A stretch of DNA of 25,076 bases from a virus: IMG/VR virus record IMGVR_UViG_3300035698_004012, positions 1 through 25,076 of that record; one strand, 5' to 3'. The notes under the pieces were generated by a model. That model searched no databases, had not been told where the DNA came from, and was given only the letters and a program-made list of their open reading frames with translations. Positions 6,981 through 23,648 of the stretch are shown piece by piece; within the stretch, counting starts at the first letter, position 1, and every line of letters starts with the position of its first letter. The position numbers and the translations under genes are program-made.

Positions 6981-7601
6981 ATGGCCGTTAAGCTGGGAGC
7001 CAAAGCCTCCACCCCCATCAAAGTCGTTCAGAAAACCATCACTGACCTGATCGAATACAAAAACAACCCACGCAAGAACGACGACGCCGTGCCGGAAATG
7101 GTGGACCTGATCAACAAGTTCGGGTTCCGACAGCCCATCCTTGTGCGCGGGAATGAGGTCGTTGATGGGCACCTGCGCTTGAAAGCCGCCCGCAAGCTCG
7201 GCATGACCAAAATCCCGTCCATCGACGTGGGGGACATGCCCGACGCGGACGTGCGCGCCCTGCGCATTGCCATGAACAAATCGGCGGAGTTCGCGGATTG
7301 GGATAAAGACGCGCTGGCCTTGGAGTTCAAAGACCTTTCTGATGCCGGATTTGAACTTGCGTTCACAGGTTTCGAGACGGGCGTGATCGACAAGATCATC
7401 AAGGAAGCCGCCGGGGAGAAGGCCCCCAAGAAAACCAAGCTGGCAGACGCGGGCAACGAGGCGGACCCAAACTACGTTGCACTCACGTTCCATATGGCAG
7501 ACAAGAGCCGGAACGCCGTGATGAAGAAGCTGGACAAGGTGGCCGAAGAACATGGTCTGGCCAACCGTTCACAGGCGTTGCTTCACCTGTGCAAAGGCTG
7601 A
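6981..7601 (+). CDS. ParB-like nuclease-domain protein (first of three)
   Basis: A 206-aa protein. Residues ~20-100 form a ParB/sulfiredoxin-type domain: LIEYKNNPRKND, then FGFRQPILV, then VDGHLRLKAARKLG with the characteristic G-H-x-R at residues 63-66, and a following I-P-S-I strand. The rest is helical, and no CTP-dependent ParB clamp or centromere-binding helix-turn-helix is obvious. Such stand-alone domains in phages often precede methyltransferases or PAPS-reductase-like proteins, as here. It leads an operon under P4. A copy of the dispersed palindrome (7351-7366) lies inside it. A role in DNA modification or regulation is inference; plasmid-style partition is less likely. Confidence 0.8.
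   Translation: MAVKLGAKASTPIKVVQKTITDLIEYKNNPRKNDDAVPEMVDLINKFGFRQPILVRGNEVVDGHLRLKAARKLGMTKIPSIDVGDMPDADVRALRIAMNKSAEFADWDKDALALEFKDLSDAGFELAFTGFETGVIDKIIKEAAGEKAPKKTKLADAGNEADPNYVALTFHMADKSRNAVMKKLDKVAEEHGLANRSQALLHLCKG
7351..7366. repeat. Dispersed palindrome copy 2 (one arm mismatch)
   Basis: TTGAACTTGCGTTCAC differs from copy 1 only at its first base. It lies in the first ParB-like gene. Confidence 0.65.
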
Positions 7602-7604
7602 CCC

Positions 7605-8246
7605 ATGTATCAGACAGAGACGCGGCCTCTTGAGGCCCTGACCCCCGCCAAACACAACTCCCGCCTGCACTCCGATGATCAGATCAAACAGATCGCCGCG
7701 AGCCTTGAACAGTTCGGGTGGACCATGCCTGTGCTGGTGGATGAAGAAGGGGTGCTGATCGCCGGTCACGCCCGCGTCCGCGCCGCCACCCTTCTGGGCT
7801 GGGCCGAAGCTCCCTGCAAGGTGGCAACCGGGTGGTCTGAGGAACAGAAGATCGCCTACCAGATCGCGGACAACAAGCTGGCAGAGAACTCCACATGGGA
7901 CGACGACATCCTGCGTGAGCAGATCGCCATGCTACAGGCCGGGGACTTTGAACTGGACGTGCTGGCCTTCCCGGACTTCCAGCTTGACGGCATCCTCGGG
8001 GGCAACACCAACGAACTGTTCACCCTCCCGATTGAAGGGGCGGACGACGCGGCCCCCAAGAACTTCATCACCAAGGAACCGAGCAAGACCTCGGACGGCA
8101 TGGTGCAGTTCAGCGTGGTGGTCCCGGCGGCGGCAAAGAAGGCCGCGTTCGCCCACCTGCGCGCCTTGATCAAGGCCGGGGAAGCCAAGAACTATAGTGA
8201 GGCGTTCATCATCGCCATGGGGGTGGCCAGTGGTCAAAATTCGTAA
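7605..8246 (+). CDS. ParB-like nuclease-domain protein (second of three)
   Basis: A 213-aa protein beginning 3 bp after the previous stop. Residues ~7-90 carry the ParB-like core: ALTPAKHNSRLHSDDQI, FGWTMPVLVDEEGVLIAGHARVRAATLLG (G-H-x-R at residues 54-57), and QKIAYQIADNKLAENSTWDDDIL. That stretch closely resembles ParB-like domains fused to phage DNA methyltransferases, but no methyltransferase motifs follow. The C-terminal ~90 residues look like a separate alpha/beta segment ending in helices. It resembles the first ParB-like protein in design but is clearly diverged. The next gene starts within its last codons. Confidence 0.8.
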   Translation: MYQTETRPLEALTPAKHNSRLHSDDQIKQIAASLEQFGWTMPVLVDEEGVLIAGHARVRAATLLGWAEAPCKVATGWSEEQKIAYQIADNKLAENSTWDDDILREQIAMLQAGDFELDVLAFPDFQLDGILGGNTNELFTLPIEGADDAAPKNFITKEPSKTSDGMVQFSVVVPAAAKKAAFAHLRALIKAGEAKNYSEAFIIAMGVASGQNS

Positions 8247-9393
8247 ACGGGAATACACCGATCAGAACGTCTACAAGGCCGCGCTGGACCGCATCCGCCA
8301 TCTGTATGACACGTTCGATGAAGTGGTGGTGTCGTTCTCGGGCGGCAAGGACAGCACGGCGACCCTGCTCTGCACCATCATAGTGGCCGAGGAACGCGGC
8401 AAGCTACCTGTCCGGGCGATCTTCTACGACGAGGAAGCCATCCACCCCCCGACCATCGACTATGTGGATCGGGTGCGACAAGACCCCCGCGTGGCGCTGG
8501 AATGGTATTGCCTGCCCATCATGCACCGGAACGCCTGCTCCAACGAGCAACCCTTCTGGCACCCGTGGCACCCGGATGAAGAACACCTGTGGACCCGCCC
8601 GATGCCGGAGTGTGGCATCAAGGACCACCCGAAGTTCGAGTGGGGCATGTCCATGCAAGACTTCGGCATGGCTCACTTCGAGGGCACCGGCGTGTGCGTC
8701 CTTCAAGGCATCCGCACCCAAGAGAGCCTTCGCCGGTATCGCGTGGTGGCGATGAAGAAGGAAGAAAACTACCTGAGCCAAAGCGACACCTACGCCTTCG
8801 CCTATCCGATCTATGACTGGACCTCCGAGGACGTGTGGCGGCTGGTGGCCAAGCTGGATGCCGACTACAACCACACCTATGACATCCTCAATCGGACCAG
8901 CAAGTTCGAGCAATTCCTGCATCAGCGCGTGTGCCCCCCGTTCGGGGAAGAACCGCTCCGGGGCCTGCATGAATACGCCGAGTGCTTCCCGGAAATGTGG
9001 GAGAAGATGATCCATCGGGTGCCTGGTGCCGCCACCGCCGCCCGGTATGGCAACACGGAACTCTATCTGTCCAAGGATAAGCCGGTGGGGACGGACTGGC
9101 GAACCCATGTGGGCAACGTGATCGAGACATACACCGGGGAGAACCGCCGCAAGGTGCAGGACAACATCAACTCGGTGATCAAGCGGCACGGGCGCATGAC
9201 CAACGACAACATCCCGGCGGACGATCCGCACCCGGTGTCTGGCGTGTCGTGGAGGTTCCTTGCTCAAATGGCTGTGCGCGGGGACTTCAAAGGCAGGGTG
9301 CATCAGAACATGGCACAGAACGCGCAAAAGACGCAGATAAAGCTGGGCCTGACATTAGCAGAGGCCAAGGCCAAGTATGGGAAACAGACATGA
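8230..9393 (+). CDS. PAPS-reductase-like (IbrA-type) N-type ATP pyrophosphatase
   Basis: A ~387-aa PP-loop protein. The loop VVSFSGGKDS lies at about residues 33-42 (Ser37-Ser42), followed by FYDEEAIHPPTIDYV as in PAPS/adenylyl-sulfate reductases and IbrA. Cysteines are scattered (for example PMPECGIKDHP), but the C-terminal CGLH-type reductase motif is not seen, so it is probably not a sulfate-assimilation reductase. GTG at 8230 is preferred (VVKIRKREYTD, with GGGGG upstream); an in-frame ATG at 8197 would give a longer overlap. Together with the next gene it forms an IbrA-IbrB-like pair. In E. coli IbrAB influences gene expression; the function in phages is unclear. Confidence 0.85.
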   Translation: MVKIRKREYTDQNVYKAALDRIRHLYDTFDEVVVSFSGGKDSTATLLCTIIVAEERGKLPVRAIFYDEEAIHPPTIDYVDRVRQDPRVALEWYCLPIMHRNACSNEQPFWHPWHPDEEHLWTRPMPECGIKDHPKFEWGMSMQDFGMAHFEGTGVCVLQGIRTQESLRRYRVVAMKKEENYLSQSDTYAFAYPIYDWTSEDVWRLVAKLDADYNHTYDILNRTSKFEQFLHQRVCPPFGEEPLRGLHEYAECFPEMWEKMIHRVPGAATAARYGNTELYLSKDKPVGTDWRTHVGNVIETYTGENRRKVQDNINSVIKRHGRMTNDNIPADDPHPVSGVSWRFLAQMAVRGDFKGRVHQNMAQNAQKTQIKLGLTLAEAKAKYGKQT

Positions 9394-11343: not shown

Positions 11344-13214
11344 AAAGTAAGGCAGACCCCCACCTTGCCAAACTTGAGGACATCCTGCTCTACGAACTTG
11401 ACAAGCCGGAGGTAGTTCAAGCGGGGCAGAGCATCGTCTCGCCGCGCAAGCGTGGTCAGTTTTATATCGCCGTTCTGGATGATATGGAAGCGCGTGAGCG
11501 GGCCATGAAGCGGTTCAAGGAACCCCCGGTATCCGCCGAGGTGTTTTTCACGGACCCCTACTTCATGGGCAACACGTTGAGCCTGTGGCCCCGTCTCAAG
11601 GAACAGATCATAGAAGCCTGCTCCGGGCAGTATACGGAAGCCGTCCTGACCGGCGCTATCGGCACGGGCAAAACCACCGGGGCCTTGGCCATACTTGCGA
11701 ACTCGCTCTATCATGTAATGAACCTACGTTCACCCCATGCGGAATATGAGCTGGATCAGAACTCCGAGATTGCCTTCGTGATGCAGTCCGTCACGGGCAA
11801 GACCGCCTATACGGTGGACTATATGCGTTTCCGCCGGATGCTGGAAAACAGCCCGTGGTTCCAGCGCAACGCCCCGCATGACCCGGAGAAGAAGGCGACG
11901 ATCCAGTTCATCGACCCGGACACCCGCCGCCCGGTCCCCATATTCGTCCAGCCCCTCCCCGGCACCGAGACAGCGGCCATCGGTGAGAACGTGTTCGCGG
12001 GCCTGATTGACGAGGTGAACCACATGAAGGTGGTGCAGCAATCCTCCAAGAAGATGAACGGACAAGCGCACGACCAGATGCTAGAAAACTACCGCGCCAT
12101 CAGCCGCCGCCGGGAAAGCCGTTTCCAGCGCACGGGGCAGGTTCCGGGGATGCTATGTCTCGTGGGTTCGGCCAACTATGCAGGGCAGTTCACCGACCGC
12201 AAGAAGCAGGAGCGTGATCGCCAACTTGAGCGCGACGGCAAGACCAGCATCTTCATCTTCGACAAGCGCCCATGGGAGGTCCAGCCCGACGACCGCTTCA
12301 CCCCTGAGCGGTTCAACGTGTTCATGGGTGACGGCACCCGGAAGCCCCGCGTGATCCCGAAACACGAGCGCATCAGCGTGAACGACACCCCCTACATCAT
12401 GGAAGTCCCGGTGGACTATCTGAACGCCTTTGAAAGCGACCTGTCCGGGGCCGTCAAGGACATCGCGGGCGTGGCCCTGCACGGCTTCTCCAACTTCATC
12501 GGAAACTACACCGCCATCAACGCCGCCTTCGGCACCCGGACCAACATCTTTAAACCTGACTGGTGCGACTTTGAAACCCAAGGCGCGGTGATCCCAAAGC
12601 ACAAGATCGAAAACCCGGACCTGCCCCGCTACCTGCACATCGACCTTGCCCTGTCCATGGACAACGCCGCCGTGAGCATGGCCCATTGTCCCGGCTTCCG
12701 GGAGATTGATCGGGGTGGCGGCATGAAAGACCTGATGCCGGTGATCCGGTTCGACGGGATGCTGACCATCCGCCCTACCGGCGGCTCGCAAATCCCTATC
12801 CACAAGATCAAGAAGCTGGTGTTCGCATTGCAGAGCCTTGGCTACAAGATTGAATGGGTTTCGCTGGACGGCTTCCAATCCGCCGACTTCATCCAGACCA
12901 TGAAGCGCAACCGGATCACATCGGGCCTCGTGTCCCTAGACCGCACCCCGGAGCCTTACATGCTGACGCGGCAACTGATCTATGACGGGTGCTGCGAGGG
13001 GCCGTCCTCGGACTTGGCCCGGTCGGAATTGAAAGACCTCGTGTGGGTCGGGCAGAAGCAGAAGGTGGACCACCCCACCGAGGGCAGCAAGGACTTGGCG
13101 GACACCATCGCCGGGTGCTGCTATGGTCTGGCCACGAAACGGGTGGTGTGGGTCCGGTGGGGCATTGACCCGCGCAAATCCAGTGTCATGCTGAAACAGG
13201 GGAAGAACGAATGA
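11340..13214 (+). CDS. terL: Terminase large subunit
   Basis: A 624-aa packaging motor with ATPase and nuclease domains. Walker A is GAIGTGKTT at residues 105-113 (Lys111). Walker B is GLIDE with Asp224 and Glu225. The RNase H-like nuclease shows YLHIDLALS with Asp435, WVSLDGFQS as the second acidic site, and KDLADTIAGC as the third. It cuts concatemeric DNA and pumps it into the procapsid through the portal. GTG start overlaps the TerS stop. The portal gene is not next but about 10.5 kb downstream. A palindrome copy (11718-11733) lies inside the gene. Confidence 0.92.
   Translation: MKSKADPHLAKLEDILLYELDKPEVVQAGQSIVSPRKRGQFYIAVLDDMEARERAMKRFKEPPVSAEVFFTDPYFMGNTLSLWPRLKEQIIEACSGQYTEAVLTGAIGTGKTTGALAILANSLYHVMNLRSPHAEYELDQNSEIAFVMQSVTGKTAYTVDYMRFRRMLENSPWFQRNAPHDPEKKATIQFIDPDTRRPVPIFVQPLPGTETAAIGENVFAGLIDEVNHMKVVQQSSKKMNGQAHDQMLENYRAISRRRESRFQRTGQVPGMLCLVGSANYAGQFTDRKKQERDRQLERDGKTSIFIFDKRPWEVQPDDRFTPERFNVFMGDGTRKPRVIPKHERISVNDTPYIMEVPVDYLNAFESDLSGAVKDIAGVALHGFSNFIGNYTAINAAFGTRTNIFKPDWCDFETQGAVIPKHKIENPDLPRYLHIDLALSMDNAAVSMAHCPGFREIDRGGGMKDLMPVIRFDGMLTIRPTGGSQIPIHKIKKLVFALQSLGYKIEWVSLDGFQSADFIQTMKRNRITSGLVSLDRTPEPYMLTRQLIYDGCCEGPSSDLARSELKDLVWVGQKQKVDHPTEGSKDLADTIAGCCYGLATKRVVWVRWGIDPRKSSVMLKQGKNE
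11718..11733. repeat. Dispersed palindrome copy 3 (one arm mismatch)
   Basis: ATGAACCTACGTTCAC matches copy 4 at 13 of 16 positions, with one mismatch in the arms. It lies in terL just after Walker A. Confidence 0.5.
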
Positions 13215-14023
13215 AGCGCAAACTGGCAGTAGTCACCACCTTCTCGAAGGCCGGGTTCGACCAATACGCCCGCCGCATGATCGACACATGGCTGGCAAAA
13301 TGGCCTGCATCGGTGGACCTGATCCTATACCCCGACGCCCATGTGGACCTGCCATCGGCACCGAACCTCCGCGTCTGCATGGCCCCCATCCGCGACAAGC
13401 TGGCCTTCATCGAAAAGTGGGGGAACATGCCGACCTACAACGGGGGGTCGCCCTATAACTACCGCTTTGATGCGGTGAAGTTCTGCCACAAGCCGTTCTG
13501 TCTGGCAGACTTCGCGGCCCGGAACGCCGCCAACCCCAAGCCCTATGACGGGGTGATATGGCTGGACGCCGACACCATCACCCACCAAGCCGTTGACGAC
13601 CGGGCGCTTCAACAGATAGCGCCCCCCAACGTCAGCCTGCAATACCTCGGACGGTCCTACAAATACACCGAGTGCGGATACCTCTGGTTCAACCTCCAAC
13701 ACCCCGAAGGCCGCAAGGTTCTCAATGCGTGGGTGAGGCTCTACAGGACCGGGCAGTTCAGGAAACAACGGGAGTGGCACGACAGCTTCCTGTTCGATCT
13801 GGCGCGCACGGCCACCAAGCCCCACCATGCCAAGGACTTGACGGGGCACATACCCCGGAGGCAAGGTGGGGGGCACCCCTTTGTAAACTGCTTCCTCGGG
13901 CAGTATATGGATCATCACAAGGGCGAGGCCCGCAAGGCCACCGGCAAGCCCCGCAAGAACGATCTGTTCACCGACCATCAGGCCCCCTACTGGAAAGATC
14001 ATAACCCCCATGCAAAATCCTGA
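13211..14023 (+). CDS. GT-A-type glycosyltransferase-like protein
   Basis: A 270-aa protein overlapping the terL stop by ATGA. The N-terminus (KLAVVTTFSKAGFDQYARRMIDTW) resembles the first strand-helix of a nucleotide-sugar-binding fold. The key signature is VIWLDADT at about residues 116-122, a DXD metal site (Asp119, Asp121), followed by YTECGYLWFNL and a C-terminal WHDSF, both typical of GT-A enzymes. It likely transfers a sugar to a protein or modified base; the acceptor is unknown. A late-gene position next to terL would fit capsid or DNA decoration. Confidence 0.7.
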   Translation: MKRKLAVVTTFSKAGFDQYARRMIDTWLAKWPASVDLILYPDAHVDLPSAPNLRVCMAPIRDKLAFIEKWGNMPTYNGGSPYNYRFDAVKFCHKPFCLADFAARNAANPKPYDGVIWLDADTITHQAVDDRALQQIAPPNVSLQYLGRSYKYTECGYLWFNLQHPEGRKVLNAWVRLYRTGQFRKQREWHDSFLFDLARTATKPHHAKDLTGHIPRRQGGGHPFVNCFLGQYMDHHKGEARKATGKPRKNDLFTDHQAPYWKDHNPHAKS

Positions 14024-14643: not shown

Positions 14644-14666
14644 CTCCAAGACCACAACCTTGGAGA
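14643..14666 (+). promoter_or_regulatory. Inverted repeat over the dikinase start region and SD
   Basis: TCTCCAAG (14643-14650) and CTTGGAGA (14659-14666) are perfect 8-bp arms around an 8-nt loop. The right arm contains the GGAGA SD of the dikinase gene. In read-through mRNA it could hide the SD; transcripts starting at P5 (expected near 14650) would lack most of the left arm. It might instead be a DNA operator. Confidence 0.45.
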
Positions 14667-14672
14667 CACCCT

Positions 14673-16565
14673 ATGATCACCCCGTTCGCCTTCACAGAAG
14701 CTGATCAAGCCCCTGACCCAGCCCTTCATGGGGGCAAGGGTGCTGGCCTTCTGGGCATGGCTCAAGCGGGCCTGCCCGTGCCGGAAGCCCTGATACTGAC
14801 CACGGCGGCGTGGAAGCACTATCGCGAAACCGGCGAATTACTGGCCTCGCTTGAGGCGGCGATCAACACCATCCTTGACGATCATACCGAAAGCATGTTC
14901 AGCGTCCGCTCCGGTGCCCCTATCTCCATGCCGGGGATGATGGACACCGTTCTGAACGTGGGCGTCACCGACGAACTGGATGCCATGTATCCGGGGGCGA
15001 TGCGCCGCTATGTGACCTCGTGGCTTGGCATTGTGCACCGGGTGCCCAAAGAGCGCGTTGATGAACTGGTGGAACTTGTGAACGCACGTTCACAGGGGCA
15101 CTCCGGCAAGTTCCGCAAACTCCTGATGGGCGTGGTCCAGCACAGCGAAAACGTCTCCATCCCGGACACCCGCTACGATCAGGTCGTGGCCTGCGTCAAG
15201 TCGGTGTTCGATAGCTGGGATACACCGCGCGCCAAGGCATATCGCGCCATGCACAACATCCCAGACGACATGGGCACCGCCTGCGTCATTCAGCGGATGG
15301 TAATGGGCACCGCCGCTGGCCTGTCCGGTTCGGGCGTCATGTTCAGCCGTGACCCGGCCACCGGCGAGAACAAGGTGCGCGGCGAGTTCGCGGAGCAGGC
15401 ACAGGGTGAGGAAGTGGTGTCGGGCGAAATCACCCCGGCCAACATTGACGACCTCATGGACTTCAACGACAAAGAGAAATGCCAACTGCATCAGGCGTTG
15501 CAGGTGTTGGCCATCAATCTGGAAACCACCTATGGTGATGTTCAGGATGTAGAGTTCACCGTCGAGAGCGGGTTACTATATGTCCTGCAAACGCGGGTCG
15601 CCAAGATGAGCGCCCGCGCCCGCGTAGTGACCGCATGTGAACTGGCCAAGAACAACTTCCCGGAAGAACCGAAGCAACAGCTTCACTACCTCCGACAGCG
15701 CGTGAGCAAGGGCACAGTGGCCAAGACGCGCGTTCCGGTGGTCAAGACCAGCAAGGATGCTGATGGCGCTGGACTGGCCGCGTCTCCGGGCGCTGTGTCG
15801 GGCCGGGTGGTGTTTCGCTCCACCCCCGCGCACAAGGTGGACAAGGATTGCATCCTAGTGGCCGAGGACACACAGCCCGAAGACTTCCCCATCATGGCGA
15901 AGTCCGGGGCGATCTGGACGGCCAAGGGCGGCTTCACCTGTCACTCCGCCGTGGTGGCGCGCGGCATCGGGGTTCCCGCCGTGGTGGGCTGCGAGGGCCT
16001 GACCTTAACCAATCAGGGCAAGCCCGGATACGAACAGGTGATCACTCCAAGCGGTATTATGCTGGTAGAGGGCGACATCATCACACTGGACGGCACGTCC
16101 GGTCAGGTGTGGGTGGGGGAACACGAGGTAGAGGCGGAAAGCCCTACCCGTGAACTCTACAATCTGCTTCACGAACTGGTGCAGTCCGAAGTCGTGGACA
16201 TCCCGGCCACCGTCTATTATCGCGACAGCGGCCTTGGTCAGAACGTGGTTCTTCCCATAGACCCGGCGGATCACGCCGCCCTTGAGCGCCAGCTTTCCCG
16301 CGCCGAGGCCATGAAGGCCAAGGGCAACAACGTGGCGGTGGCCTTTGAGTTCCAAGGGCTTGGAGAGGACATGTTCGCGCCCTCCCTGTCCGCCACCTTT
16401 GCCGAGTTGGCCGAGCATTATAGCGCGGACTTCAAGGGCCTGACGGTCCTGTATGGGGTGCCGATGGAATTGCAAGACAGCGTGTCAGAGGCTCTGGGCT
16501 GCATCATCAACAAAGAGAAGGTAAACGTGCTGGACCTTCTCGACTTGCTTGACCAGCCGTCGTAG
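14673..16565 (+). CDS. Pyruvate-phosphate-dikinase-like protein lacking the PEP/pyruvate domain
   Basis: A 630-aa protein. Residues ~18-40 (GGKGAGLLGMAQAGLPVPE) and ~76-95 (FSVRSGAPISMPGMMDTVLN, with Arg79) are hallmark PPDK ATP-grasp motifs. GTAAGLSGSGVMFSRDPATGE follows. The swivelling phosphohistidine domain holds TAKGGFTCHSAVVARG with His424. PPDK (about 870 aa) continues with a PEP/pyruvate TIM barrel; here the last ~140 residues are unrelated and I do not recognise them. It can plausibly autophosphorylate His from ATP, but the acceptor is unknown. The start is ATG at 14673 behind TTGGAGA; an upstream in-frame GTG (14634) lies in the promoter. Palindrome copy 4 is inside. Confidence 0.85.
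   Translation: MITPFAFTEADQAPDPALHGGKGAGLLGMAQAGLPVPEALILTTAAWKHYRETGELLASLEAAINTILDDHTESMFSVRSGAPISMPGMMDTVLNVGVTDELDAMYPGAMRRYVTSWLGIVHRVPKERVDELVELVNARSQGHSGKFRKLLMGVVQHSENVSIPDTRYDQVVACVKSVFDSWDTPRAKAYRAMHNIPDDMGTACVIQRMVMGTAAGLSGSGVMFSRDPATGENKVRGEFAEQAQGEEVVSGEITPANIDDLMDFNDKEKCQLHQALQVLAINLETTYGDVQDVEFTVESGLLYVLQTRVAKMSARARVVTACELAKNNFPEEPKQQLHYLRQRVSKGTVAKTRVPVVKTSKDADGAGLAASPGAVSGRVVFRSTPAHKVDKDCILVAEDTQPEDFPIMAKSGAIWTAKGGFTCHSAVVARGIGVPAVVGCEGLTLTNQGKPGYEQVITPSGIMLVEGDIITLDGTSGQVWVGEHEVEAESPTRELYNLLHELVQSEVVDIPATVYYRDSGLGQNVVLPIDPADHAALERQLSRAEAMKAKGNNVAVAFEFQGLGEDMFAPSLSATFAELAEHYSADFKGLTVLYGVPMELQDSVSEALGCIINKEKVNVLDLLDLLDQPS
15078..15093. repeat. Dispersed palindrome copy 4 (perfect arms)
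   Basis: GTGAACGCACGTTCAC: 7-bp perfect arms with a CA centre, identical to copy 5, in the dikinase gene. Confidence 0.75.
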
Positions 16566-16583: not shown

Positions 16584-16856
16584 ATGTTCATAATCACAGC
16601 ATACGAGGGGCAGGTTATCAGAGTGGGCGACCGCCTGCTCCGCGTGGGGCACCTGCGTTCCCCCGGCGTGGTGGAGTTGCAGGCGGACGGGGAAGCCGAT
16701 CATTTTCTGGTAAGCGCAGATCGAAAGACCGAAGTGTTCCCGGAAGTGTTCCTTGCCATAGAGCGCAACCTGCACATGTCCAACCGCGTGAAGTTTTTGT
16801 TCGAGGCACCCCGAATCATTCGCATCCGGGAATTGCCCCATGACCCAAGCCTATGA
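16584..16856 (+). CDS. Small beta-rich protein with CsrA-like features
   Basis: A 90-aa protein behind GGGGG and ATG. The start (MFIITAYEGQVIRVGDRLLRV) resembles CsrA strands 1-2 (LILTRRVGE..IGD). The end (NRVKFLFEAPRIIRIRE) resembles the CsrA signature RVRLGIEAPREVPVHRE, with about 35 extra residues between the two. If real it would be an RNA-binding translational regulator. A chance barrel resemblance is possible. A frame-shifted ORF over the same bases (16565-16843) is rejected because its product is low-complexity. It overlaps the next gene by 17 bp. Confidence 0.6.
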   Translation: MFIITAYEGQVIRVGDRLLRVGHLRSPGVVELQADGEADHFLVSADRKTEVFPEVFLAIERNLHMSNRVKFLFEAPRIIRIRELPHDPSL

Positions 16857-17217
16857 GATAACCGTAAGCGACAACGCTATCCGTCAAGGTCGCGCCTGTG
16901 GCCTGTTCAACGATACAGAGGCAAGGGTCCGGGGCCTTGCCCGCGTGGCCATGCCGACAAAGCATCCCGCCGGGAACCGGGCCTATGGGCCTTTCGTGCT
17001 GCACATGCGGGGCGGACAGGTGGTGTCCATCACAATGGTGGGACCACGCCCTACGGACGCCCGCCCGGTGACTGAGTGCCGCGTGTGCGCGGGCCTGATG
17101 ATCCGCCGGTTCACTACCACGATTGACGGGAAGGAGGGCACAGCCTCCCGACCTTGCCCTCGGGCCTTTGACCCTTCGCAACCCCTGTGCGACACCATCC
17201 TACGGAGACAGCCATGA
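16840..17217 (+). CDS. Four-cysteine, possible zinc-binding protein, 125 aa
   Basis: Not recognised. Cysteines at 80 and 83 (ECRVCAG) and at 106 and 117 could bind one zinc ion. Residues ~45-68 (AYGPFVLHMRGGQVVSITMVG) look like two strands. It may be a small nucleic-acid-binding or regulatory protein. It overlaps the genes on both sides (17 bp upstream, ATGA downstream), so it is probably translated with the phosphatase that follows. Confidence 0.6.
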   Translation: MTQAYEITVSDNAIRQGRACGLFNDTEARVRGLARVAMPTKHPAGNRAYGPFVLHMRGGQVVSITMVGPRPTDARPVTECRVCAGLMIRRFTTTIDGKEGTASRPCPRAFDPSQPLCDTILRRQP

Positions 17218-17768
17218 TCAAGACAATCCCCATCTTCCTGCCCGGTGACCGGGTGGCCTACATCACAGCGGGGCCTACCAAGGAACTCCCCGACGACCAC
17301 ATGCTGATCAGGTGCGCGGCGGAAATCCCGGTGGCACCGGACCGCGTGGCCTTCGACATCAGCACCGGCGACTTCATGCCCTTTGACGAGGACAGGCTGA
17401 TCGAGACAGTCCCGGACATCATCGAGTGGCTTGGCGATGAAACCCGTAAGCCTCTCTATGCCGGGTGCATGGGCGGCACAGGCCGCACCGGAACGATCCT
17501 TGCCATACTGGTGGCACAGCACCCCGGAATGACCAGCGATAACGCCATCAAATACATCCGGCAAATCTACAAGCCCCACGCGGTTGAGACGAGGGAGCAG
17601 GCCGAGCAGGTCTGTCGCCTGACGTATGTGACCCCTGTACCGGAACTGCCCGAACTGGACCTCACGGGGCTTGCGGCGGTGTGGGGCGAACCCGGCGGGC
17701 CTGAGCAACCCATGGAACCTCGCAAGGGGTGGCTCGACCGCATCCGGGAGTGGTTTTTACCCGGTTGA
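17214..17768 (+). CDS. Dual-specificity/tyrosine phosphatase-like protein 1
   Basis: A 184-aa protein with the cysteine-phosphatase loop AGCMGGTGRTG: nucleophile Cys85 and Arg91 in CX5R. The residue before Cys is Gly, not the usual His. An upstream acidic loop (DISTGDFMPFDED, residues ~45-57) may supply the general acid. The helix after the P-loop and IKYIRQIYKPHAVETREQ match the sister protein at 18786, so the two are paralogues. GGAG precedes the ATG at 17214 (ATGA overlap); an in-frame GTG at 17187 is less likely. The TGA lies inside promoter P6. The substrate may be a phosphoprotein or phospho-metabolite. Confidence 0.78.
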   Translation: MIKTIPIFLPGDRVAYITAGPTKELPDDHMLIRCAAEIPVAPDRVAFDISTGDFMPFDEDRLIETVPDIIEWLGDETRKPLYAGCMGGTGRTGTILAILVAQHPGMTSDNAIKYIRQIYKPHAVETREQAEQVCRLTYVTPVPELPELDLTGLAAVWGEPGGPEQPMEPRKGWLDRIREWFLPG

Positions 17769-17793: not shown

Positions 17794-17823
17794 GCCCCTA
17801 GTGACCTACCTTGGAGACGGCCA

Positions 17824-18789
17824 ATGCCCACCACCCTAGACTATTTCAAGAGCCACCCCTTGCGCGTAGCCAAGAACCAGCGCGCCGTCCCTATACACAT
17901 GGTTCGACAGGCCGAGAAGCAATCCGTGATGGAGGATGAGTTGCACCCCACCACCGGAGCCTTCATCCACTATGGCGGCGTCGAACTTGCTGACATGCTG
18001 GTGATCACCGCCCCCGCCCTGTCTCAGTCCGAATTGGATAAGCTGGCGATGCTCTGGTATAAATCCTGTGGCCGGGTGGCGAAGCAACTCCTGTTCTACA
18101 CATGGCAGATCATCGCCAAGGAACTGCGTCACGGGTCGTCCAACATGACCAGCAAGGCGTTCTCCGGGACCAATACCGACCCCGAAATCCTCGCCGCCGT
18201 TCACGCTGTGACCAGTGGGGGTTCCTACATGGGCCACGTCGATGCCATAGGACACAAGCCGGTCGGCCTGTGGGTCGATGCGGTCGAGCGCCACTTCCGG
18301 CACGGGGGATGGGGCGGGGCCTACGGCGGCAAGAAGTGGGCGGACATCGCGGTGGTGTTCCAGCAATACATAGACGGCACGGCCTCCGCCATGCTCGCCG
18401 CCGACCGGGCTTGGACGCTGGTTCACAACACTGGCCCGATCTTCAACAAAGGATTTTACTTCAAGCTGCATGACGGCAACCTTGCGCAAATCCTGAACGC
18501 GCAAGCCGTGTCCAGCGTGTTTGATATGAAGGCCACCATCTACGGCTCTGACAAGTATCAGCATGAGGCTCTGGCAAACTTTATCGCCTTCTCCACTCTG
18601 GCAGAGGCCGCTATCCAGACCGTGAAGCCTGATTACAATATGGGTTCCACCGGCGGCGTGACCAGCGACGGGCAGAAGGGCCTTGCCATGGCCCATTCCA
18701 TAGCTGGGGATGAAGGCCCCGCCGGGACGACCACCAAGACCCTTGGGCCTATCAAGTTTTACTCCACGCAAGAAAGGCCGGCGGAATGA
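17824..18789 (+). CDS. Hypothetical phage protein between two phosphatases, 321 aa
   Basis: Not recognised. ATG at 17824 follows TTGGAGA; an in-frame extension to 17671 crosses promoter P6 and is rejected. The middle is helical (LAMLWYKSCGRVAKQLLFYTWQIIAKELRHG has a hydrophobic helix but no clear membrane span). A glycine-rich stretch HGGWGGAYGGKKWADIAVVFQQY and GFYFKLHDGNLAQILNAQA are distinctive. The C-terminus is Gly/Thr-rich and flexible. It is sandwiched between two paralogous phosphatases, which suggests a linked pathway, but its role is unknown. Confidence 0.65.
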   Translation: MPTTLDYFKSHPLRVAKNQRAVPIHMVRQAEKQSVMEDELHPTTGAFIHYGGVELADMLVITAPALSQSELDKLAMLWYKSCGRVAKQLLFYTWQIIAKELRHGSSNMTSKAFSGTNTDPEILAAVHAVTSGGSYMGHVDAIGHKPVGLWVDAVERHFRHGGWGGAYGGKKWADIAVVFQQYIDGTASAMLAADRAWTLVHNTGPIFNKGFYFKLHDGNLAQILNAQAVSSVFDMKATIYGSDKYQHEALANFIAFSTLAEAAIQTVKPDYNMGSTGGVTSDGQKGLAMAHSIAGDEGPAGTTTKTLGPIKFYSTQERPAE

Positions 18790-19418: not shown

Positions 19419-19447
19419 AGGAGGACCACAACCTTGGAGAAACCCTG

Positions 19448-20222: not shown

Positions 20223-23200
20223 ATGCGGCTACTGATCTGCGATGCTAAACCCGACGATGTGAAACATGACCTTGGCCACCTGAAAGTGGCCGGGGGCATC
20301 AGTGTCATGGTGAACCCGCAATGGCTGACCCCTGATCCAGATGAACCCCTGTGGATTGCCTGCGGTGCCCCGGCGGTGAAGGTGGTGCAGGCGGCGGGGT
20401 GGATACCGAAGAAGGGTGGGGTTGAGGCCAATCGGGGCAAGCTGTGGCAGAACATCCAGCCTGATGGGTGGTCCCATGCCATCAGCCTTGGCATCACCTA
20501 CGCGCCCCAAGTTAGGCAGATTGAGATTGCCGATTGGGTGAAGTTCGAGACGGACATAGGCCAGTATCGACGCTTTGAAACCACGGGCAGCATGGACGCC
20601 ATCCTCGGGGATTACAGGTGGGTGACCGACCTGTCCGGGGTGGTCGAATACTGCAAGCGGAAACACGCCACCACGGGCAAGCCTGTGGAGTTGTCGCTGG
20701 ACACCGAGACGGAGGGGCTGGACCCCTTCAACCCGGAGAAGAACATCGTGTGCGTCCAAGCCACGGCCAAGGCGGGCATGACTGATCTGGTTTACACCAA
20801 GGGGCTGGACGCCAAGACCCTGAACACCGTCATAATCCAACTGCATTGGCTGGTGACCCAACCTTGGATCAAGGTGATCGGGGCGAACTTCAAATACGAC
20901 ATGCTATGGCTCCGGGTGAAGTGGGGCATCGGGGTGGAGAACTTCGCCTTCGACACCTGCAACGGCGGCTCGCTGGTGGACGAAAACAGACCGAACACCC
21001 TGAACATCCACACCAAGGTCTACACCCCGACGCTCGGGGGCTACGACGACGAGTTCGAGCGCACCCATGACAAGAGCAAGATGGGGGAGGTTCCCCCGGC
21101 TGACCTGCTACCCTATGCCGGGGGCGACACCGACGCCTGCTTCCAGAACTATCCCCGCATCCGGGATGAACTGGTGTCCGACAACAAGACCAAGAACGGA
21201 TTGCCTGCCAAGAACAGTCTGGCGTCCGTTTACCTGAATGTCGTGCACCCCACCCTCCGCGCGCTGCACAAGATGGAATACACCGGCGTCTGCGTCGATA
21301 CCGAGAGGTTCCACGAGTTCGGGGCTGATCTGGAAAACCGCATGGTTGAGGCTACCAAGAGAGCGGTGGCCTACCTGCCCAAGTCGATCCTTGATGCCTC
21401 CGGGGGCCTTGACGACAATGGCGGCGCTCCCCTGTCCAAGCCCGCGATGATCGCCAAGTTCCTGTTCAGCCCCCAAGGTCTGAACTTGAAACCCACGGTG
21501 GTCACCGAAAAGACCGGGGCACCCTCCACCGCTCAATACCATCTGGCACAGTTCAAAGACCACCCGGAAGCGGGGCCGCTGATCGAGCAATATCTGGACT
21601 ACAAATCCACGTCCAAGATGCACGGCACCTATTACAAAGGCTTCCTCAGTCACCTACGCCACGACAACCGCTGGCATGCTTCCTACATAATTCACAAGCA
21701 AGGTGCGGGCAAGAACAACGAACAGGATGCCAGCGGCACGGTGACCGGGCGAGGCTCTGCCACCGCCCCCGCCTTCCAGTGTGTCACCGGCGACACAGAG
21801 ATTGTCACCCCCAACGGGGTCAGGACCGCCGCCTCCCTGATAGACCCCATCATCCCGGACAACGCCTACAACCCGTTCGTCGCCCACGAGACTACCATCT
21901 GGGGGGGCAAAGGATGGGAGCAGACCAGCAACGTGTTCAAGTCGTGGCGGCATGACCTGATCAAGCTTAGACTGCGCTGTGGCAACACCATCACCTGCAC
22001 CCCTGAACACCCGTTAATGGTGCAGGAGTTCAATTTGTCAAAGCGGGATTGGATCAAGGCCAAAGACCTGTTACCCGGACACATCCTGTCCCTACCCGAT
22101 GCCATAGAGCGCCCGGACGGCCCGGACATGCCGGAGGAAGCATTGGTGGCGCTGGGCCTGATTGCCGCCGGGGGTTACCTGTCACAGAGCGGGGACATGA
22201 TCTACATTCAGGTAGCGGTGGATCACGGCTATCTGATCGTGGACGCCTGCAAAGCCCTTGGCATCGCACACGCCCTAGAAACGGTCGAGGACGGCGACAA
22301 GGTTCACGCGGTGGTGCGGATGCACCTGACGGACGACACCCCATCACGGGCCGTTCTGTGGCTTCTCTGGCTCCCCCATCCCTCGGGGCCGGTGGTGCCC
22401 TTGGAAGTGCGCGGGACAAAGGCGTGGTGGTCGGTGCAGCGGGGCATCCTGCTATCGAACTCCACCCCCAAGGTCTACGCCGTGCACTCCCATGGAATAG
22501 TGGTCCGTGTGAACGCACGTTCACTTGCCACGGTCCTTGTGCGCGAAGCCCTGCTCGATGGCATCCGCCCCCCGCACATGGTGGTAAGGAAGGACCACTA
22601 CGTGATGGAGTATCAGGGGTGGATTGCGCGTGAGACGCTGATGAACTCCGGCCTGCCCCCCGGCCCCTGCACCAAGACCCGGCCCACCTATGAGACATTC
22701 CTACGGGGCCGCGCGGTGTCCATGACGGTGGACCATATTGAGATTGCCGGGGCCGGGTGGGTATACGACTTCACCCTGCCAAAGACCCACACCTTCTCCG
22801 CGAACGGCCTGATCAGCCACAACACGGTGCCGAAACACTCCTATTGGGGCAAGCGCCTCCGGGAGTGCATCATCGCACCAGACGGCTATGTGATCGTCGC
22901 GCGAGACTACAGCCAAGGCGAACTCAAGGTGGCCGCTTGCTGGGCTGGCGAGGACAAGATGATCAACGCCTATCAAAACGGAATTGACCTCCACGTTCTT
23001 ACCGCCGCCACGGTGAACGGCATGACTTATGAGGAAGCCATGTTCCTCAAGGAAAACAACCTGCCCGCGTTCAAGACGCTTAGACAGAACGGCAAGGCGG
23101 GCAACTTTGGGCTGATTTATGGCATGACCGCCTATGGCTTTATGATCTATGCCGACAGCCAATACGGGGTGAAGCTTACCCTTGAGGAAGCCGAAGCGAT

Positions 23201-23648
23201 GCGGGATGCCTTCTTTGAACTGTATCCGGGCCTGCCCCATTGGCACGACCTTCAAATCATGGAAGCCCAACAGACGGGCATGGTCCGTTCCCCGCTCGGA
23301 AGGTTGCGACATCTTCCCAACATACACTCCCCCATCATGAAGGTCCGCAAAAAGGCACAGAACCAAGCTATCAACTCACCCATTCAGGCCACGCTGGTGG
23401 ACATGATGTGGTGGTCCATGGGGATCATCGAGCGACAGCGCCCGGAACTTCTCGTGCCCTCCGCACAGGTGCACGATCAGGGGATTTGGTATACCCCCGA
23501 AGATCGCGTAGACGAGGCGCTGGCCTACTCCGCCGAGGTCATGGAGAACCTGCCATTTGAGCAGAAGTTCGGGTGGAAGCCTGAACTCAAGTTCACTTCC
23601 GACGCCGAAGTGGGTCTTAACCTTGCCGAGTTGAAAGAGGTCGCGTAG
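20223..23648 (+). CDS. polA: Family A DNA polymerase with 3'-5' exonuclease, interrupted by an intein
   Basis: A 1141-residue precursor. The N-terminal ~130 residues (IACGAPAVKVV, NRGKLWQ, LGITYAPQ) faintly recall a uracil-DNA-glycosylase-type domain. The exonuclease has LDTETEGLDP (Asp160, Glu162), IGANFKYDMLW and YAGGDTDACF. The polymerase domain has TGRGSATAPAFQ split by the intein (residues 520-867), motif A ARDYSQGELK (Asp895), motif B GKAGNFGLIYG (Lys958) and motif C AQVHDQG (Asp1085). Canonical motif C is HDE; here Glu is replaced by Gln1086. After splicing the enzyme is about 793 aa. It should replicate the phage genome. GGGAGG precedes the ATG. Confidence 0.92.
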   Translation: MRLLICDAKPDDVKHDLGHLKVAGGISVMVNPQWLTPDPDEPLWIACGAPAVKVVQAAGWIPKKGGVEANRGKLWQNIQPDGWSHAISLGITYAPQVRQIEIADWVKFETDIGQYRRFETTGSMDAILGDYRWVTDLSGVVEYCKRKHATTGKPVELSLDTETEGLDPFNPEKNIVCVQATAKAGMTDLVYTKGLDAKTLNTVIIQLHWLVTQPWIKVIGANFKYDMLWLRVKWGIGVENFAFDTCNGGSLVDENRPNTLNIHTKVYTPTLGGYDDEFERTHDKSKMGEVPPADLLPYAGGDTDACFQNYPRIRDELVSDNKTKNGLPAKNSLASVYLNVVHPTLRALHKMEYTGVCVDTERFHEFGADLENRMVEATKRAVAYLPKSILDASGGLDDNGGAPLSKPAMIAKFLFSPQGLNLKPTVVTEKTGAPSTAQYHLAQFKDHPEAGPLIEQYLDYKSTSKMHGTYYKGFLSHLRHDNRWHASYIIHKQGAGKNNEQDASGTVTGRGSATAPAFQCVTGDTEIVTPNGVRTAASLIDPIIPDNAYNPFVAHETTIWGGKGWEQTSNVFKSWRHDLIKLRLRCGNTITCTPEHPLMVQEFNLSKRDWIKAKDLLPGHILSLPDAIERPDGPDMPEEALVALGLIAAGGYLSQSGDMIYIQVAVDHGYLIVDACKALGIAHALETVEDGDKVHAVVRMHLTDDTPSRAVLWLLWLPHPSGPVVPLEVRGTKAWWSVQRGILLSNSTPKVYAVHSHGIVVRVNARSLATVLVREALLDGIRPPHMVVRKDHYVMEYQGWIARETLMNSGLPPGPCTKTRPTYETFLRGRAVSMTVDHIEIAGAGWVYDFTLPKTHTFSANGLISHNTVPKHSYWGKRLRECIIAPDGYVIVARDYSQGELKVAACWAGEDKMINAYQNGIDLHVLTAATVNGMTYEEAMFLKENNLPAFKTLRQNGKAGNFGLIYGMTAYGFMIYADSQYGVKLTLEEAEAMRDAFFELYPGLPHWHDLQIMEAQQTGMVRSPLGRLRHLPNIHSPIMKVRKKAQNQAINSPIQATLVDMMWWSMGIIERQRPELLVPSAQVHDQGIWYTPEDRVDEALAYSAEVMENLPFEQKFGWKPELKFTSDAEVGLNLAELKEVA
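21780..22823 (+). other. Intein within DNA polymerase I (348 aa)
   Basis: The insert starts at Cys520 (CVTGDTEIVTPNG, splicing block A) and ends at His-Asn867, followed by Thr as the +1 nucleophile. Block B is NTITCTPEHPL; blocks F/G are GWVYDFTLPKTHTFSANGLISHN. It splits the motif equivalent to PNLQ/NIP of PolA. The central region has LGLIAAGGYL (precursor residues 644-653), which looks like a LAGLIDADG motif whose acidic residues have become Ala and Gly, so the homing endonuclease is probably inactive. Confidence 0.9.
22509..22524. repeat. Dispersed palindrome copy 5 (perfect arms)
   Basis: GTGAACGCACGTTCAC, identical to copy 4, lies in the intein-coding part of polA. Confidence 0.75.
23581..23596. 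repeat. Dispersed palindrome copy 6 (one arm mismatch)
   Basis: CTGAACTCAAGTTCAC differs in one arm base. It lies near the 3' end of polA. Its first 11 bases recur at 23661-23671 before the portal gene. Confidence 0.55.

Follow-up and report, generated by a model that had tools for sequence, protein, structure and literature searches.

Genes at the locus

The window, i.e. the whole stretch of 25,076 nucleotides that was analysed (IMG/VR virus record IMGVR_UViG_3300035698_004012, a 25 kb fragment), carries a dikinase gene related to that of pyruvate phosphate dikinase (PPDK), followed by genes for a small protein (p125), two cysteine phosphatases (PTP1 and PTP2) and a protein designated X372. 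The features are as follows, with the evidence in brackets.

14673–16565, + strand: dikinase gene, 630 amino acids, family phrog_18609 ("kinase"), first gene of the module (ORF, Pfam, PHROGs, PDB, AF2)
14673–15602, + strand: ATP-grasp (PPDK_N-type) domain, residues 1–310 (Pfam, alignment with PPDK, invariant residues)
15759–16112, + strand: phosphohistidine (PEP-utilisers mobile) domain, residues 363–480 (Pfam, alignment with PPDK)
15942–15944, + strand: codon of the catalytic His424 (GGFTCH424SAVVAR), aligned to PPDK His455 (alignment with PPDK)
16113–16562, + strand: C-terminal domain, residues 481–630, predicted alpha/beta, poorly conserved, no family match (Pfam, profile comparison, AF2)
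16840–17217, + strand: p125, a small protein often present between the dikinase and PTP1 (neighbourhood comparison)
17214–17768, + strand: PTP1, PTP/DSP-type cysteine phosphatase with CMGGTGRTG; its start ATG at 17214 overlaps the p125 stop (Pfam, CX5R)
17824–18789, + strand: X372, family phrog_20946, 321 amino acids from ATG 17824 (helical prediction, 12 invariant residues, fusion in contig L130)
18786–19415, + strand: PTP2, PTP/DSP-type cysteine phosphatase with CIGGHGRTG; 4-base overlap with X372 (Pfam, CX5R)

In relatives with sufficient flanking sequence the genes lie on the same strand in the order dikinase, p125 (where present), PTP1, X372, PTP2 and DNA polymerase, and the block sits between the terminase and DNA polymerase genes. 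In the window, the p125/PTP1 and X372/PTP2 pairs each overlap by 4 bases. TTGGAGA precedes the dikinase start ATG at 14673, and a CCTTGGAGA box closely precedes each of the starts of the dikinase (14658–14666), X372 (17809–17817) and the gene after PTP2 (19432–19440); no further exact copy of this box is present within the window.

Several flanking genes were also noted. Two tandem ParB-like genes (6981–8246) lie upstream of a gene (8197–9393) for a PAPS-reductase-like protein (phrog_2302) that is distantly similar to the DNA phosphorothioation protein DndC. The product of 13211–14023, whose gene accompanies the dikinase in close relatives only, has no Pfam match and carries a DxD-like motif (VIWLDADT) reminiscent of glycosyltransferases. 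The DNA polymerase I ORF (20223–23648, 1141 amino acids) seems to be interrupted by an intein, since N- and C-terminal splicing signatures are present (residues ~520–600 and 846–868); its similarity to the aminoadenine-type DpoZ is weak and far below the cut-off.

The dikinase and its catalytic residues

The dikinase ORF runs uninterrupted from ATG 14673 to 16565 on the + strand. Full-length alignments with viral relatives gave 28–68 % identity and, because the frame is kept across viruses, its conservation is far above chance. The ORF is thus real and intact. Pfam matched PPDK_N (E 1.1e-38) and the PEP-utilisers mobile domain (E 4.9e-22) in the protein, with a linker of ~50 residues between the two. 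The AF2 model (mean pLDDT 92.5) resembles PPDK, with 28 % identity in the structural alignment. In the PDB-search alignment, dikinase K22, R79, D292 and E294 correspond to PPDK K22, R92, D321 and E323, while Q306, R308, T422 and H424 correspond to PPDK Q335, R337, T453 and H455. All eight residues are invariant in 54 phage relatives. By analogy with PPDK and VadK, we infer that ATP phosphorylates His424.

Loss of the PEP/pyruvate barrel

PEP-utilizers_C was not found in the 630-residue dikinase by Pfam, and PPDK aligns to residues 15–490 only (E 2.5e-74). The protein scores 360 bits with the PPDK model TIGR01828, far short of the cut-off of 843. It has the ATP-grasp and swivelling His domains of PPDK and lacks the PF02896 barrel in cis. 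PF02896 was not found elsewhere in the window record either and, this record being a fragment of 25 kb, relatives were used in the search for a PEP domain encoded in trans. The complete genomes of five isolates (DLP5, RcZahn, RHph_Y1_11, SIO-2 and KarBoss) and the other long module-bearing viral records (80–118 kb) gave no match apart from a decayed barrel in contig L017, the long phage records with the module numbering 28; the same search found the domain in 14/14 control genomes. Only three of 34 records contained PF02896, namely L018 and L019, each with a full PPDK, and L017.

The ~140 C-terminal residues of the dikinase have no Pfam match, and profile comparison of the tail with the barrel gave no match when L017 was left out. 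A strong match obtained with alignment A6 was discarded as an artefact because L017 was present on both sides of the comparison. AF2 predicts a small alpha/beta domain for residues 481–630, a fold that would suit a remnant of half a barrel, and L017 is an example of a barrel that did decay. Conservation ends at this point: among the 54 sequences, 71 of the 310 columns of the ATP-grasp domain and 25 of the 118 of the His domain are conserved at 90 % or more, against 0 of the 150 of the tail, and the DLLDLL at the very end is kept only in close relatives. As no column of the tail reaches this level, it holds no shared acceptor site. Within the best explanation, which taken as a whole we consider somewhat probable, the tail would be a fast-evolving leftover or a docking piece and not a catalytic acceptor site.

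A preliminary description of this gene stood in part. Its statements that the PPDK signatures and the catalytic His424 are intact, that the TIM barrel is missing and that the C-terminal residues cannot be placed agree with the above, and the separate barrel gene that it named as a counter-case was not encountered in the window record, the five isolates or the long records, L017 excepted. What it missed is that the new function does not reside in the C-terminal region. The conserved features are the neighbours PTP1, X372 and PTP2, and the function lies outside positions 14673–16565.

X372 and the phosphatases

X372 is predicted to be all-helical (pLDDT 89). Twelve residues are invariant in 106 sequences (Y50, Y92, E100, R102, G168, G169, W172, D194, L199, H201, N202 and K209), and H103 is kept in 105 of them. 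The protein has no sequence match in Pfam, NCBIfam, PADLOC or the PDB, phrog_20946 being its sole database family. A Foldseek search with the predicted fold gave no significant match in the PDB and, in BFVD, matches to unnamed viral proteins only. PolF was discarded as a structural relative (weak matches, TM ~0.12). X372 is proposed to be the acceptor, or the acceptor-binding subunit, for phospho-His424; that the two would dock is deduced from their co-conservation and from one gene fusion.

The CX5R catalytic loop is intact in every complete copy of the phosphatases. PTP2 exceeds the Pfam cut-offs for Tc-R-P (28.4 versus 27) and Y_phosphatase3 (25.9 versus 22.2), PTP1 scores 26.7 versus the cut-off of 27, and the family profile matches PDB phosphatases with an E of 2e-12. 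PTP1 and PTP2 share the CX5R(T/S)G loop and the general fold with Pfam PTP-SAK and Tc-R-P and with PDB entries 2i6i and 2img, as judged from profile matches. They differ from PTP/DSP enzymes in that the catalytic Cys is preceded by Gly and not by His (197/199). The name of their family phrog_17568, "thymidylate synthase", was rejected, as Pfam reports phosphatases; neither ThyA nor ThyX (PF00303, PF02511) was matched in the window record. The phrog_17568 genes of DLP5 and DLP3 carry a thymidylate synthase annotation, and the misleading name has spread. The Cys-rich tail of p125 is present only in close relatives.

Co-occurrence of the module genes

When X372 was used as the query, the dikinase and both an upstream and a downstream phosphatase were present at 54/54 loci with enough flanking sequence, some of these contigs being near-duplicates. 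The search that started from the dikinase yielded 106 distinct complete proteins, of which 98 are barrel-less, and X372 adjoins 91 of the latter. As to the other seven, five are on contigs that end too soon, L016 is a genuine exception and L130 has X372 fused to it. Among the 93 distinct barrel-less viral dikinases that are followed by enough sequence, X372 is thus separate in 91 and fused in 1. Neither X372 nor the PTP accompanies any of the seven viral dikinases whose PEP site is intact; with the exception of L017, barrel-containing dikinases are without X372 and PTP. Testing barrel state against the presence of X372 (Fisher) gave p ~5e-10, a value that is not evidence of independent events because the barrel-containing sequences form one branch.

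Six contigs from bacterial genomes with X372 relatives also hold the dikinase and phosphatases, mostly with the terminase and polymerase genes arranged as in the phages. Vibrio SIO-2-like phages have kept PTP1 and X372 and are missing PTP2. PADLOC found no defence-system match among the module proteins. General synteny could also hold the block between terminase and DNA polymerase together, which counts against the best explanation, as do the lack of PTP2 in the SIO-2-like phages, the L016 dikinase without X372 and the single contig behind each of the fusion and the decayed barrel.

Contigs with unusual dikinases

In L130, a single protein of 780 residues combines dikinase homology (residues 1–513) with X372 homology (residues 562–758), X372 occupying the position that the PEP barrel normally has in PPDK; a PTP gene follows 20 bases downstream. 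A gene for an RtcB RNA ligase (L130:13998–15182) is located ~4 kb downstream of the fusion. In L017 the partners are kept in a different gene order (X372, phosphatase, dikinase), and the barrel is still recognisable (84 bits). It carries the substitutions R561K, R617Q, E745D, N768D, D769R and C831S (PPDK numbering), at positions which we take from established PPDK work to be pyruvate-site residues; all six are kept in 7/7 other aligned viral barrels. Judged by these residues, the L017 barrel is decayed and catalytically dead. Fusion and dead barrel are each known from a single contig, and no further relatives of either were found in IMG/VR with the patterns used.

In a tree that is unrooted, was made with a quick method and does not include VadK, L017 and L130 fall among the true PPDKs and not in the main group of barrel-less proteins (clan support 100). 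This branching suggests that the X372 partnership is older than the loss of the barrel, and fits a recruitment of X372 before that loss. L016, a viral record of 192 kb without X372, encodes a dikinase of 540 amino acids that ends soon after the His domain (L016:5935–7557). It represents a second type of barrel-less viral dikinase, one that resembles VadK, and its lack of both barrel and X372 means that a dikinase can exist without X372.

Alternative explanations

A working PPDK, i.e. an auxiliary metabolic gene product interconverting pyruvate and PEP during infection, is suggested by the closest solved structures, which are PPDKs, and by the name used in Vibrio phage papers (PMC12038007, PMC9229204, PMC10671443, PMC10141217). 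This is nevertheless extremely improbable given the TIGR01828 score and the lack of PEP-utilizers_C in the protein and in the long module records, save for the decayed L017 barrel; moreover, those viral dikinases whose PEP site is intact form a separate set that has no X372/phosphatase module. PEP has been docked onto a predicted model, the match of which to PPDK 1GGO was complete for residues 1–527 only (PMC12038007), and the viral ppdK that has been assayed (PMC12615777) is outside the domain comparison made here. As the ATP half is kept, the pyruvate half is lost, and a partner protein and phosphatases are present instead, the label "pyruvate phosphate dikinase", and with it pyruvate/PEP turnover by the phage dikinase, is very probably wrong. 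A regulatory His kinase that acts on host metabolic enzymes in the manner of VadK, with X372 as a cofactor and the phosphatases resetting the dikinase, is unlikely. VadK, which is likewise barrel-less, autophosphorylates and is reported to interact with methylcitrate-cycle enzymes (PMC13400623), and L016 offers a barrel-less viral dikinase without X372. A host target would, however, not explain the near-constant presence of X372 or its fusion in L130 at the place of the acceptor domain. To our knowledge, PTP/DSP enzymes are also not typical phosphohistidine phosphatases.

A small-molecule dikinase of the rifampin phosphotransferase or HpeHI type, in which X372 would be a metabolite-binding subunit, is quite unlikely. 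The two-polypeptide HpeHI (PMC12167813) and rifampin phosphotransferase (PMC4844700) use the same engine with other acceptors, and the invariant polar residues of X372 are enzyme-like, but no consistent association of metabolic genes with the module was seen and X372 resembled no known substrate-binding domain in the PDB fold search. Should X372 bind a metabolite, this reading would overlap with the best explanation. Nucleic-acid chemistry, in which the dikinase and X372 would phosphorylate a base, a nucleotide or an RNA end, as part of DNA hypermodification or of RNA repair, with the phosphatases acting on the product, is very unlikely. It would fit the fixed position of the module beside DNA polymerase and terminase, the RtcB gene near the L130 fusion, the PTP-SAK model among the weak Pfam matches of the PTPs and the resistance of the DNA of the module-bearing phage DLP3 to 15 restriction enzymes (PMC7326821). 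DLP3, however, is a single phage with other modification candidates, e.g. a glycosyltransferase. Known routes of hypermodification were rejected, as thymidylate synthase (1/27), ThyX (5/27 over the cut-off) and QueC (0/27 over the cut-off) are not common, and RNA repair was rejected as RtcB is restricted to two of 34 records, the unusual contigs L130 and L016. A link of the module to DNA modification is possible.

Proposed mechanism and significance

The locus probably encodes a PPDK-derived phage phosphotransfer module, with a His donor, an acceptor side formed by X372 and reversal by cysteine phosphatases. The dikinase would bind ATP in its ATP-grasp domain and phosphorylate His424 on the swivelling domain, by the chemistry of PPDK and VadK. 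With the pyruvate/PEP site lost, the phosphorylated His424 would dock with the separate X372 in place of the PEP domain. X372 would either be phosphorylated itself or hold the acceptor. One or two PTP/DSP-type cysteine phosphatases would then remove the phosphate from X372 or its product, and the phosphotransfer step is therefore proposed to be reversible. A bolder version, which we put forward tentatively, is that of a new ATP-driven phosphorelay of tailed phages, in which the His kinase charges X372, a protein of new fold, possibly on an invariant Tyr or His, the phosphatases serve as an off-switch, and the recruitment of X372 was followed by loss of the barrel.

The gene is carried by Vibrio, Stenotrophomonas, Rhodobacter and Rhizobium phages and by many uncultured ones, and in the literature it is taken for a PPDK that boosts host carbon metabolism. 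The module appears to serve a core function in a large group of phages, and offers a protein family of unknown fold together with a defined candidate phosphotransfer pair. L017 and L130 resemble intermediates in the conversion of a metabolic enzyme into one that signals or modifies.

Comparison with known systems

No description of the module was found in the open-access literature. The N-terminal ATP-grasp and swivelling His domains have the same order in PPDK (TIGR01828; PDB 1kbl) and in the phage dikinase, while the barrel is present only in PPDK. Rifampin phosphotransferase (RPH; PMC4844700) likewise has an ATP-grasp domain, a swivelling His and a non-pyruvate acceptor, as is proposed for the phage protein, in keeping with the view in the preliminary description of an acceptor other than pyruvate with RPH as an analogue of different domain order. 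In RPH the acceptor domain is inserted between the other two. The dikinase has no rifampin-binding insert (NF041857, 72 versus 999 bits), and the PDB fold search revealed no resemblance of X372 to the rifampin-binding domain. We know of no phosphatase partners of RPH.

HpeHI (PMC12167813) is a phosphohistidine dikinase split over two polypeptides, as is proposed here. The split differs, the ATP-grasp domain of HpeHI standing alone and its His being joined to the acceptor in the other subunit, whereas ATP-grasp and His are together in the phage protein. VadK and HpeHI support the proposed engine by analogy. The abstracts and consulted passages of both papers mention neither X372-like proteins nor phosphatase partners, and the VadK paper makes no mention of phages (PMC13400623). 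With the bacterial model NF004531 (534 positions), the dikinase scores 305 bits versus a cut-off of 456.

The nearest precedent is VadK (Rv1127c) of M. tuberculosis, reported in 2026. It was shown experimentally to be a barrel-less PPDK derivative that autophosphorylates its catalytic His (PMC13400623) and, like the phage dikinase, it has kept the PPDK-derived ATP-grasp and phosphohistidine domains and lost the PEP domain. The module would be its viral counterpart, from which it differs by the extra C-terminal domain of the dikinase and by its fixed partners, X372 and the PTP/DSP-type phosphatases.
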